Assembly: GCA_005222965.1 (NCBI GenBank)
Contig: NJBG01000001.1
Span: 208,323 to 272,322 of the forward strand
DNA from: Candidatus Woesearchaeota archaeon B3_Woes
GTDB lineage: Archaea > Nanobdellota > Nanobdellia > Woesearchaeales > B3-WOES
Direction: 5' to 3'
DNA: 64,000 bases
Part shown: piece after piece, positions 4,162 to 27,483 of the stretch
Layout of the letters: every line of letters starts with the position of its first letter
How positions within the stretch are numbered: the stretch's first letter is position 1
Position numbers and translations under genes: made by a program
The notes under the pieces: generated by a model
Told to the model about the DNA's origin: nothing
Database searches by the model: none
Seen by the model: the letters and a program-made list of their open reading frames with translations, nothing else

Positions 4162-4470
4162 GTGATAAAAAATATTCAATTCATCGGATTGAATAAATTA
4201 GAAGATTTGGAAAAAGACACATTTCAGACACTAACATCTAAATATTACAATAAGATTAAAAGAATACCAAAAGAGATAACTTCTTTAACAATACACATAA
4301 AACAGCACAAAAAAAGCCACCATGTTTCTAGATATTCTTTACATATTAAACTAGTTGTACCTTCAAAGGTTTTTGAAGTCAAAAAAACAGAATGGGGCGT
4401 AACAAAGCTTTTGCATAAATCATTTACAGCATTAGAAAACGAACTTCTAAAATATTATAATATAAAATAG
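4162..4470 (+). CDS. HPF/S30AE-like ribosome-associated protein
   Basis: This 102-residue basic protein has the outline of ribosome hibernation-promoting factors: beta strand, helix, three strands (SLTIHIKQH, YSLHIKLVV, KVFEVKKTE) and a C-terminal helix (ALENELLKYY). Members bind the 30S decoding centre during inactivity. Overall similarity is modest and rests on pattern only. The frame begins with GTG at 4162, about 27 nt after the TATA-like TATATAAG at 4131-4138, which argues for a leaderless GTG start. The stop codon overlaps the last three bases of the convergent tRNA gene. Confidence 0.5.
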   Translation: MIKNIQFIGLNKLEDLEKDTFQTLTSKYYNKIKRIPKEITSLTIHIKQHKKSHHVSRYSLHIKLVVPSKVFEVKKTEWGVTKLLHKSFTALENELLKYYNIK

Positions 4471-4642
4471 CGGGAGGTGGACTTCCAAAAAAGATATATA
4501 AATATCCTTTTTTTGAACCACCGACCTTTGCCCAAAAAACATAAAATGTTTTTTTCCGGGTGCCTCAGGGAAATCCCTATGAGCCTTCCGCAGTCATGAG
4601 GTCCATGACTTCGACGGGCACTCCTGACTGCCCCATCCCGCT
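4468..4642 (-). tRNA. Initiator tRNA-Met(CAU) precursor with four introns
   Basis: Acceptor halves (4642-4636 with 4475-4469) pair perfectly; A73 is encoded at 4468. D-stem GGGCA/TGCCC encloses a GG-containing loop. Removing 4611-4586 (26 nt), 4577-4562 (16), 4556-4529 (28) and 4514-4485 (30) leaves a 75-nt tRNA with anticodon stem TCGGG/CCCGA, loop CTCATAA, variable loop AGGTC, T-stem GGTGG/CCACC and T-loop TTCAAGT. The three consecutive G:C pairs at 29-31:39-41 are the hallmark of initiators. Introns sit at about 29/30, 37/38, 42/43 and in the T-loop (56/57-58/59). Boundaries can slide by 1-2 nt; intron 3 could give CCCGG instead of CCCGA. Introns 1, 3 and 4 contain strong internal hairpins. 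A TATA box at 4665-4674 is centred 27 nt before the 5' end. Confidence 0.85.
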
Positions 4643-4737: not shown

Positions 4738-4897
4738 GCCGCGGTCGCTTAGTCTGGCCATAGCGTCGGATTGCTAGGAACAATATTACCTAGAATCTTA
4801 ATAAAGTTCACAAAAATCCGATGTCCTTCGGGGCACGTGAGTTCAAATTGGTCAAAAGGTTTCAAAGCCTTTTGCTTTGAAAGTCTCACCCGCGGCG
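4738..4897 (+). tRNA. tRNA-Ser(GCU) precursor with two introns
   Basis: Acceptor stem GCCGCGG (4738-4744) pairs with CCGCGGC (4890-4896), discriminator G at 4897. The anticodon stem TCGGA/TCCGA and loop TTGCTAA form after removal of a 39-nt intron at 4777-4815 (position 37/38). Anticodon GCT is at 4773-4775. The long variable arm TGTCC-TTCG-GGGCA (4822-4835) marks a class II serine tRNA. T-stem GTGAG/CTCAC encloses a T-loop TTCAAAT interrupted by a second intron of 36 nt (about 4848-4883, sliding by a base), which folds with AAAAGG/CCTTTT. The mature length is 85 nt. The next gene begins 10 nt downstream. Confidence 0.9.
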
Positions 4898-4906
4898 TTT
4901 ATAAAA

Positions 4907-6118
4907 ATGAGAAAAATAAAACTTGAATCGTTTTTTGACGAAAAAACAATGTCAGTTCACCTTAGAGAGGGCTCTTTTCCTTTTGCTAAAAAAGGTTCAC
5001 CTGGAAACTGGGATTTTGTTAAAATAAAGAACAAGGAACTAACTCAGACAGAAATAGAGGAAATAAGCAAGGAAATAATTGAAATAGGAGAAGAAGGTGA
5101 GGAAGGATTTGTAGAAATAAATAGAACAGGTTCTACAATAGCTCAATTAGGGACGTTTAGAATTGTAATAACAAGACCTCCTTTTTCAGACGGATGGGAA
5201 ATTACAGCTGTAAGACCTGTAAAACACCTAAAATTAGAAGAGTATAATCTATCATCAAAACTATTGGAAAGATTAGACAAGCAGGCAGAAGGAATTTTAA
5301 TATCAGGAGCTCCTGGAATGGGAAAATCAACATTTGCTGCTGCTCTAATAGAGCACTATGCAGACAAAGGAAGAATTGTGAAGACAATTGAAGCTCCAAG
5401 GGATTTAGTATTGCCAGAGAGCATAACTCAATACGCCATTTCGCATGGTTCTCCTGAAGAAGTTCATGATATCTTATTATTATCAAGACCAGATTATACA
5501 CTATTTGATGAAATGCGTAATAAAGATGATTTTCATCTATTCTCAGATCTAAGACTATCAGGTATAGGTTTAGCAGGAGTTGTTCATGCAACAAATCCAG
5601 TAGATGCTATACAAAGATTTGTAGGTAAAATAGAGCTAGGAGTAATCCCTCATGTAATAGATACTGTAATTTTCATAAAAGATGGAAAAATAGATAAGGT
5701 TCTGGGCCTACAAATTGAAGTCAAGGTTCCATCAGGAATGACAGAAGCTGATTTAGCAAGACCCATTGTTACTGTAAAAGATTTTGAAACAAACAAGCTT
5801 GAATATGAATTATATTCTTATGGTGAAGAAACTGTTGTAGTGCCTGTTGCAGAACAAACAATAAAAAAAACAGGTGCAAAAAGATTAGCAGCACAAGCAA
5901 TAAAAGATTATTTCTTAAAATACTCAGACATGGTGGAAGTAGATGTTGTTTCTGAAAACAAAGCAGTTGTTAATGTTCCAGAATATGCTATTTCTGGAAT
6001 AATTGGAAAAGCAGGAAAACATATTAATGAGATTGAGAAAAATTTAGGAATTAGCATTGATGTAGGAGAAATACAAGGACATTTTACTAATAAGAATAAA
6101 AAGAAAAAACGAAGATAA
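4907..6118 (+). CDS. PilT/VirB11-like ATPase with C-terminal KH domain
   Basis: A P-loop NTPase of the secretion-ATPase class: Walker A GAPGMGKST, an Asp box (LLLSRPDYTLFDEMR), a His-containing segment GVVHATNP, then a C-terminal type I KH RNA-binding domain (IIGKAGKHINEIEK) and a very basic tail. Archaeal relatives usually carry an N-terminal PIN ribonuclease domain and are about 600 residues; here (403 residues) the PIN domain is missing. An RNA-related role is inferred from the KH domain. The frame stays open upstream into tRNA-Ser, but the ATG at 4907 is the first start outside it. The esterase gene follows after 10 nt. Confidence 0.8.
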   Translation: MRKIKLESFFDEKTMSVHLREGSFPFAKKGSPGNWDFVKIKNKELTQTEIEEISKEIIEIGEEGEEGFVEINRTGSTIAQLGTFRIVITRPPFSDGWEITAVRPVKHLKLEEYNLSSKLLERLDKQAEGILISGAPGMGKSTFAAALIEHYADKGRIVKTIEAPRDLVLPESITQYAISHGSPEEVHDILLLSRPDYTLFDEMRNKDDFHLFSDLRLSGIGLAGVVHATNPVDAIQRFVGKIELGVIPHVIDTVIFIKDGKIDKVLGLQIEVKVPSGMTEADLARPIVTVKDFETNKLEYELYSYGEETVVVPVAEQTIKKTGAKRLAAQAIKDYFLKYSDMVEVDVVSENKAVVNVPEYAISGIIGKAGKHINEIEKNLGISIDVGEIQGHFTNKNKKKKRR

Positions 6119-25468: not shown

Positions 25469-26086
25469 ATGCCTGAAAAGAAACTAAGGATTTTAGCAGC
25501 AGGAGACATTCATGGAGATGTTGACCTAGCTGAAAAACTAGCAAAAAAAGCAAAAAAAGAACATGTTGATTTAGTTGTTTTATGTGGAGATATAACCTAT
25601 GCAGATCAATCAACAGCTAATTTGATTAAACCTTTCAAAAAACTGCATGAAAAAGTTCTACTAATACCAGGAAATCACGAGCCTGTTGCAACAGCAGATT
25701 TCCTAGCTGAATTTTATGAAATAAAAAACATTCATGGCTATTCTGTTAAGTATAAAGACGTAGGAATATTTGGAGCAGGGGGAGCAAACATAGGTTTATT
25801 CCAACTAAAAGAAAAAGAAATTTACGATTTACTAAAAAAAGGATTTGACAAGATAAAATATCTAAAAAAGAATATAATGGTAACTCATGTCCATCCTTCT
25901 GGAACAAAGATGGAAAAATTTACAAAGATATTTCCAGGATCAGAAGGTGTAAAAAGAGCAGTAGAAAAACTAAAACCAGATATATTACTCTGCAGTCATG
26001 TGCATGAAGCAGAAGGCATAGAAGAAAAAATAGGCAAGACAAAAGTTATTAATGTTGGTAGAAGAGGAAAAATAATAGAAATCTAA
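25469..26086 (+). CDS. Calcineurin-like metallophosphoesterase
   Basis: 205 residues with all metallophosphoesterase motifs in order: GDIHGD, LCGDIT, GNHEP, MVTHVHPSG and CSHVHEAEG, which bind two metal ions. The single-domain cytosolic form resembles archaeal cyclic nucleotide or phosphoester hydrolases. The substrate is unknown. The 3' end overlaps the convergent rtcB gene by 4 nt. Confidence 0.88.
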   Translation: MPEKKLRILAAGDIHGDVDLAEKLAKKAKKEHVDLVVLCGDITYADQSTANLIKPFKKLHEKVLLIPGNHEPVATADFLAEFYEIKNIHGYSVKYKDVGIFGAGGANIGLFQLKEKEIYDLLKKGFDKIKYLKKNIMVTHVHPSGTKMEKFTKIFPGSEGVKRAVEKLKPDILLCSHVHEAEGIEEKIGKTKVINVGRRGKIIEI

Positions 26087-27483
26087 CCTTTACAAACACC
26101 CATAGGCTCTAATCTAACAACTTTAGGAGAAATTCCAGACTTATCAACACTTTCTATAACATCTGAAACATTTTTATAAGCTTCAGGGGCTTCTTCAGAT
26201 AAAATTTTAGGATGAGTTGATTTTGCAATTATACCACGAGAAGCTAATCCTTTACGAATATCTTCTCCATCAAACTTTCTTATTGCGGCATGCCTTGACA
26301 TAGAACGTCCAGCACCATGACAAGTACTTCCAAATGTCTTTTCCATAGCTTTAGAACTTCCTTTACAAATAAAAGAAGCAGTTCCCATTGAGCCTGCAAC
26401 TAAAACAGGATTTCCAGGAAAAGCTCTTGTAGCGCCTTTTCTATGAACATAAACCTCTTTTTCAACACCATCAACTAAATGCTTCTCTAATTTAACAACA
26501 TTATGACATAATCCATAGATAGTATGCATATCCATCTCCTGCCAAGTTCTACCAAATACCTTTTCAAAAGTTTCCCTTATCCATTGCGTCATAACAAGGC
26601 GATTTGTAAAAGAATAATTAACAGCGCACTTCATTGCTTTAAAATAATCCTGACCTTCTGAAGAATTTACAGGAGCACAAGCCAATTGTCTATCAGCTAA
26701 TTTAATCTTATACTTTTGAACAGCTTTTTCCTGAATTCTCAAATAATCTGTAGCAACCTGGTGACCTAAACCTCTAGAACCGCAATGAAGCATAATAACT
26801 ACTTGATTTTTATCTGTTATTCCTAACTTAGAAGCAAATTCTTTATCATAAATATCACTTACTTTTTGTATTTCCAAGAAATGATTACCAGCACCTAAAG
26901 TCCCAAGCTGTGGTTTTCCTCTTTTTTTTGCTAAATCACTGACTTTAGAAGGATCAGCACCAGACATACATCCATTTTCTTCTAATGATGCTAAATCTTC
27001 TTTAACACCATAACCATTCTCAACAGCCCATTTACATCCTTTAACCAAAACTTCATCTAATTCAGAATCACTAAGCCTAAGCTTTCCTTTAGAACCAACT
27101 CCACAAGGAATAGTTTTGAATAATTCAGTAATAAGTTCTTCCATCTTAGAATTAACTTCATCATAAGTTAAATTCGTACGAATAGAATTTATCCCGCAGT
27201 TAATATCAAAACCACATAAGCCAGCGCTTATAACACCGTCGACAGCATCAAAAGCAGCAACACTTCCCATAGGCAATCCATAACCAAAATGAGCATCAGA
27301 AAGTGCTACAACAGGATCAATCACACCAGGCATCTGAGTTACATTCATAATCTGTCCAACAGTTCCATCTTCTAATTCATCGATTATAGCTTTATTTCCT
27401 ATAACTAGCCCATTTACATTCATAGAGCCTTCTCTAGGTAACTGCCATTCAAATTCATTTAATTTTTTTAATTTTTCTTTCAT
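26083..27483 (-). CDS. rtcB: tRNA-splicing ligase RtcB
   Basis: RtcB joins tRNA exon halves with 2',3'-cyclic phosphate and 5'-OH ends, using GTP and Mn. The 466-residue protein has Asp93 and Cys96 (FDINCGI), His201 (GAGNHFLE), His233 (LHCGSRGLGH) and the CHGAGRSMSR loop (His389) equivalent to the guanylated histidine of the Pyrococcus enzyme. There is no intein. The start has a strong GAGGAGAT ribosome-binding site and a TATA box AGTATATAAAT near 27521-27531. Archease is 1 kb upstream on the same strand, and two intron-rich tRNA genes lie in this window. Confidence 0.97.
   Translation of the reverse strand: MKEKLKKLNEFEWQLPREGSMNVNGLVIGNKAIIDELEDGTVGQIMNVTQMPGVIDPVVALSDAHFGYGLPMGSVAAFDAVDGVISAGLCGFDINCGINSIRTNLTYDEVNSKMEELITELFKTIPCGVGSKGKLRLSDSELDEVLVKGCKWAVENGYGVKEDLASLEENGCMSGADPSKVSDLAKKRGKPQLGTLGAGNHFLEIQKVSDIYDKEFASKLGITDKNQVVIMLHCGSRGLGHQVATDYLRIQEKAVQKYKIKLADRQLACAPVNSSEGQDYFKAMKCAVNYSFTNRLVMTQWIRETFEKVFGRTWQEMDMHTIYGLCHNVVKLEKHLVDGVEKEVYVHRKGATRAFPGNPVLVAGSMGTASFICKGSSKAMEKTFGSTCHGAGRSMSRHAAIRKFDGEDIRKGLASRGIIAKSTHPKILSEEAPEAYKNVSDVIESVDKSGISPKVVRLEPMGVCKG

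Follow-up and report, generated by a model that had tools for sequence, protein, structure and literature searches.

The tRNA-Ser(GCU) gene at positions 4738-4897 (+) of the window (the whole 64,000-nt stretch of DNA analysed here) carries two introns, one of 39 nt at the canonical 37/38 site and one of 36 nt in the T-loop, at site 59/60, and it belongs to a set of nine tRNA genes of its genome that are interrupted at the latter site. Judging from gene sequences and gene content, we estimate a probability of about 0.92 that these T-loop inserts are archaeal bulge-helix-bulge (BHB) tRNA introns that would be spliced by the endonuclease EndA and the RNA ligase RtcB. The class of archaeal BHB tRNA introns, including site 59/60, is already known (PMC4090602); the abundance of T-loop introns, their common design, a gene with four introns and a loop-less splicing enzyme, all in an order of DPANN archaea, are new.

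In the Ser(GCU) gene, GCCGCGG (4738-4744) pairs with CCGCGGC (4890-4896) to form the acceptor, followed by G73 at 4897; the anticodon arm reads TCGGA-TTGCTA^39 nt^A-TCCGA, with anticodon GCT, and the T arm reads GTGAG-TTCAAA^36 nt^T-CTCAC (the other features are listed in Table 1). The first intron has three of four central-helix pairs when judged by eye, which makes it a relaxed BHB. The tail of the second, TGAA (4878-4881), pairs with TTCA of the T-loop (4842-4845) and is followed by an AG^T bulge. Both intron lengths given by the sequence-only reading proved exact. ARAGORN, as well as Rfam at gathering threshold, detected no tRNA anywhere in the unspliced window; once both inserts were removed from the Ser(GCU) gene, ARAGORN returned a complete tRNA-Ser(GCT) with a long variable arm. 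The closest relative (G001) was excluded from the comparison of this gene because its contig starts within the adjacent gene. That adjacent gene (4907-6118, +) begins about 10 nt 3' of the tRNA and encodes a PilT-like ATPase with a KH domain; relatives encode a frame of 605-624 aa whose first 140 or so residues form a PIN-like N-terminal part, which is absent from the ATPase in the window and did not turn up in the rest of the genome.

The neighbouring gene on the opposite strand encodes the initiator tRNA-Met(CAU), and the claim that two adjacent genes carry T-loop introns held, the neighbour having a 30-nt one plus three further introns. Four cuts reduce its 174 nt to a mature body of 74 nt, which shows the A1-U72 end and the GGG/CCC anticodon stem found in archaeal initiators. 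These four introns exceed the archaeal maximum of three per tRNA gene stated in the tRNAscan-SE 2.0 paper (PMC8450103).

Table 1 Features of the window.
Feature	Coordinates	Strand	Remarks
tRNA-Ser(GCU) exon 1, positions 1-37	4738..4776	+	acceptor, D arm, anticodon TTGCTA
tRNA-Ser(GCU) intron 1, 39 nt, canonical 37/38 site	4777..4815	+	excision restores anticodon arm
tRNA-Ser(GCU) exon 2, 38 to 59	4816..4847	+	anticodon stem 3' strand, long variable arm, T-stem 5' strand GTGAG (4837-4841), T-loop TTCAAA
tRNA-Ser(GCU) intron 2, 36 nt, T-loop site 59/60	4848..4883	+	
tRNA-Ser(GCU) exon 3	4884..4897	+	T60, T-stem CTCAC, acceptor CCGCGGC, G73
Initiator tRNA-Met(CAU), four introns	4468..4642	-	base 73 at 4468; splicing yields a complete tRNA-Met
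Initiator Met intron at 29/30, 26 nt	4586..4611	-	pairing of CCGT (exon) with GCGG (intron)
Initiator Met intron at 37/38, 16 nt	4562..4577	-	CTCA pairs with TGAG
Initiator Met intron at 43/44, 28 nt	4528..4555	-	boundaries may be off by one base
Initiator Met T-loop intron at 59/60, 30 nt	4482..4511	-	
RtcB RNA ligase, expected tRNA exon ligase	26086..27354	-	PF01139, E 1e-159; G000:C1:234408-235676

We surveyed the whole genome that contains the window (1.02 Mb, 96% complete, closest among named genomes to Woesearchaeota) with a purpose-written tRNA scan allowing T-loop introns, at a score cut-off of at least 27. The sequence-only reading would have been refuted by a lack of such introns in other tRNAs; the scan found nine genes with an intron at 59/60, those for Asp(GTC), Val(TAC), Ser(GCT), initiator Met, Ala(GGC), Ala(TGC), Ser(TGA), Ile(TAT), and Pro(TGG), which together hold 21 introns. 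Ten dinucleotide-preserving shuffles of the contig gave no gene at a score of 27 or more (best shuffled score 26.7), and we rejected chance hairpins as the origin of the inserts on this ground. ARAGORN recognised none of the nine genes before splicing and all nine after splicing, indicating that intron removal restores a canonical tRNA. The unspliced genes were missed by ARAGORN even with introns of up to 150 nt allowed (0/9) and by Rfam at gathering threshold (0/9); a genome search with RF00005 gave 29 matches, which among the T-loop cases included only part of Val(UAC). Because the nine genes missed by ARAGORN include the only initiator tRNA found, genomes of this kind can seem to lack part of their tRNA set.

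This failure of ARAGORN and Rfam to call the genes would also be expected if they were decaying pseudogenes or assembly errors, which we regard as the least probable of the explanations considered, with a negligible likelihood. The exons are intact in all nine genes, the arrangement recurs in more than 100 independent assemblies, and the interrupted genes include the sole copies found of essential tRNAs: no second copy of Ser(GCU), initiator Met, Asp, Ala, or Val(UAC) was found in this 96% complete genome, so the interrupted genes must work.

The T-loop introns share a design, which we examined in an alignment of 15 arms (eight of the nine own arms and seven from relatives). The invariant core consists of the T-stem, TTCR (positions 54-57), two bases, the intron ending in (Y)GAA-A(G/A), a T, and the other strand of the T-stem. 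Across all pairings 98.5% of the cells pair, and in the central helix, with its four pairs between exon and intron, 96.7% do, both counts being inflated because the model candidates were picked partly by T-stem and central-helix pairing, a bias from which the acceptor test described below is free. The five pairs of the T-stem, the outer helix, are present in 15/15 arms, with both sides changing in four of the five pairs. The pair between base 57 and the intron covaries, being A-U in 10 arms and G-C in 3 and mismatched in 2; G-A mismatches of the central helix occur in Val(TAC) and Ala(TGC). The inner, second helix is more variable among the nine own introns: it is near-regular in initiator Met, Val, Ala(TGC), and Pro, offset or uncertain in Ser(GCT), Ser(TGA), and Ile(TAT), and absent in Asp and Ala(GGC). 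Strict and relaxed BHB motifs thus coexist among the nine T-loop introns.

Sequence and covariation show that in the precursor the five-pair T-stem acts as the outer helix, while T-loop bases 54-57 (TTCR) and the complementary YGAA at the intron's 3' end form the four-pair central helix. The 5' bulge comprises bases 58-59 and the first intron base, and the 3' bulge the intron AG and base 60. From gene content and knowledge of the enzyme families, a single alpha-type EndA would cut both bulges, and RtcB would join the exons, restoring the seven-base T-loop.

Several inserts fold into stable hairpins, and an alternative is that the inserts persist in the mature tRNA and turn its T-loop into a larger hairpin. 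We consider this very unlikely, since retention would destroy the universal seven-base T-loop and its contacts with the D-loop, and the tails of the inserts complement TTCR, as a BHB requires. Moreover, relatives have the Ser(GCU) gene both with and without the insert, the insert-free form being found in L080, L109, and L129 of the same order.

The T-loop introns are widespread in this order. A covariance model (R1) built from the arm with the T-loop intron matched 114/145 genomes of the same order (E<=0.01), and in a broader sample of 193 genomes from the phylum it matched 112 (E<=0.001), of which 15 belong to other orders of the class. Ten chosen genomes had between 8 and 20 matches each. 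A perfect seven-pair acceptor and an upstream D arm, neither of which is used by the model, accompany 38 of 40 matches checked, compared with about one for shuffled acceptors. We considered whether R1 detects intact tRNAs and rejected this, given that in the own genome 8/8 matches are true and about 30 intact tRNAs are unmatched.

In order to compare introns between genes, we used the core of the Ser(GCU) T-loop intron without its last six bases and calculated z against shuffles. It is identical at 26/30 positions (~87%, z 9.0) to the T-loop intron of Pro(UGG) in G001, a genome of the same family, at 24/30 (80%, z 7.8) to that of Tyr(GUA) in G001, and at 23/30 (z 5.6) to that of a tRNA-Cys in G053; the Pro and Tyr cores agree at 25/29. 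In the own genome the T-loop of Tyr is intact and the Pro T-loop intron is a different one. An intron sequence common to Ser, Pro, Tyr, and Cys demonstrates, at the level of sequence comparison, that introns have moved between tRNAs of different isoacceptor type. The earlier suggestion that this lineage was invaded by, or maintains, introns at this site is thus strongly supported by the nine genes, the 114/145 genomes, and the near-identical introns across isotypes in a genome of the same family. Near-identical T-loop introns also occur in different tRNA genes of the same genome (L205/L206 in G005, L233/L234 in G082), and these pairs could be the result of gene duplication or of intron copying.

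The design of the T-loop intron suggests a route for such movement among tRNA genes. TTCR is almost invariant among tRNAs, so that one intron with a YGAA-AG tail fits nearly any of them, which would make the T-loop a general landing site for introns. Archaeal tRNA transcription is independent of an internal B box; such a dependence would otherwise keep the T-loop free of insertions. Copying of introns between isoacceptors has been reported in Thermoproteales (PMC4033280, PMC4090602) and accounts for the intron similarities seen here. The sharing of near-identical introns among unrelated tRNA genes is known; here it concerns introns of the T-loop with a tail complementary to an exon sequence that is conserved universally.

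The enzyme predicted to cut these introns is encoded by one gene for a 194-aa alpha-type EndA with N and C domains. A sensitive profile search of the genome found no second EndA-like protein (next match E 0.52), and nearly all relatives that have EndA possess a single copy. The insertion with the key lysine of the Crenarchaea-specific loop (CSL) is absent, as shown by a nine-column gap relative to the Aeropyrum pernix alpha subunit in 30/30 EndAs (the own one and 29 other Woesearchaeal ones), whose length in this region is similar to that of the Methanocaldococcus jannaschii alpha4 enzyme. The ARMAN-specific loop (ASL) is also lacking, its site, placed from match coordinates only, being the same as that of the CSL. 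T-loop introns are present in 24 of the 30 genomes whose loop-less EndA was examined. The sequence-only reading had anticipated an epsilon2 or alpha2beta2 enzyme, and this typing was not borne out: there is one alpha-type gene, with neither a second subunit nor a three-unit fusion and with no CSL or ASL. RtcB is present once in the genome, inside the window.

Such a combination is unexpected from the established relation between EndA type and introns, in which alpha4 and alpha2 enzymes are strict and found in intron-poor archaea, (alpha-beta)2 and epsilon2 enzymes are lenient and found in intron-rich ones, and a lysine-bearing loop is the cause of the difference. According to reviews, cutting by alpha4 and alpha2 enzymes is confined to canonical BHB motifs (PMC4033280, PMC4090602), and a CSL or ASL loop confers broad EndA specificity (PMC6379350, PMC12397907). 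A strict BHB at an unusual position might still suit a narrow enzyme, so it is the relaxed introns that conflict most with this view, and the imperfect introns of the own genome, in Val(TAC), Ala(TGC), Asp, and Ala(GGC), count against splicing by the alpha-type EndA, given this description of published alpha-type enzymes. From this set of presumed substrates, a broad-specificity endonuclease is a fair deduction.

The introns could also be real and be cut by something other than EndA alone, such as a second subunit that escaped recognition, a different nuclease, or an enzyme that a host cell provides. Woesearchaeota are generally considered host-associated, which would leave room for the last of these, and the sole EndA lacks the CSL and ASL loops that have been tied to broad specificity (PMC6379350, PMC12397907). 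Nevertheless, we judge this explanation improbable, considering that the profile search revealed no second homologue, that EndA is single-copy in nearly all relatives bearing it, and that several T-loop introns are near regular BHB motifs that a loop-less enzyme could cut at any position. It is reasonably likely, from the sequences compared here, that Woesearchaeota splice many relaxed or non-canonical introns with a loop-less, single-gene alpha EndA, so that the CSL/ASL rule would not be general, and that the introns of the T-loop act as cassettes that can replace one another, their YGAA-AG tail taking advantage of the universal TTCR, which would make the T-loop a landing site for mobile tRNA introns genome-wide. 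The order combines a strict-type enzyme with lenient-type introns, and the rule linking the type of endonuclease to the set of introns is thereby directly testable.

Comparison with known systems shows both likenesses and differences. Non-canonical BHB tRNA introns, including ones at 59/60, were described in Thermoproteales and other archaea (Sugahara 2008, as relayed in PMC4090602). To judge from that review, these introns share with those of the present genome the 59/60 site, the BHB logic, the presence of several introns per gene, an acceptor-stem intron at 3/4 (here in Pro), and similar introns across isoacceptors; the present case differs in concerning Woesearchaeota, in the unusually favoured T-loop site (up to 20 model matches per genome), and in the single alpha EndA without CSL. 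The alpha4 EndA of Methanocaldococcus jannaschii (1A79) resembles ours in having one gene, N- and C-domains, no CSL/ASL insertion, and a loop region of nearly equal length, but organisms with alpha4 enzymes are described as having few, single, canonical introns (PMC4090602), whereas Woesearchaeota have many non-canonical ones. The best PDB match is the alpha subunit of Nanoarchaeum equitans EndA (3IEY, E 4.9e-36), with KW-(V/I)-YP-like and KNRVAHST motifs in common; in contrast to our enzyme, for which none was found, the N. equitans one needs a beta subunit. Intron-rich tRNA sets with non-canonical positions and several introns in more than half of the genes are also described for Atabeyarchaeia and Freyarchaeia, which, unlike Woesearchaeota, are Asgard archaea (PMC11291895). 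In the open literature, where Sugahara 2008 and Fujishima 2010 were represented through reviews, we found no earlier report of T-loop introns in Woesearchaeota.

Many other genes of the genome are interrupted at 37/38 or elsewhere, e.g. those for elongator Met (introns of 19 and 51 nt) and Leu(CAA) (31 and 49 nt). The tRNA-Ile(UAU) gene (G000:C1:929646-929947, +) spans 302 nt, with introns of 111 nt in the D-loop, 26 nt at 37/38, and 91 nt in the T-loop; it suggests that AUA is read by its UAU anticodon rather than by a modified CAU, and Ile(UAU) is also found in the relatives L177 and L244. The tRNA-Pro(UGG) gene (G000:C1:157097-157255, -) has a 29-nt acceptor-stem intron at 3/4, with the 5' leader apparently contributing to its central helix, in addition to introns at 37/38 and 59/60. 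The 6.3-kb contig G000:C4 carries four tRNAs without introns (Lys CTT, Glu, Val, and Thr), three of them followed by ACCA or TCCA, and is probably a bacterial or phage contaminant. A 5' tRNA half (GCCCCTGTAGTAGAATGG...; G000:C1:197723-197755, +) lies 88 nt upstream of a complete tRNA-Arg(GCG) with the same acceptor sequence and is possibly a duplication remnant.
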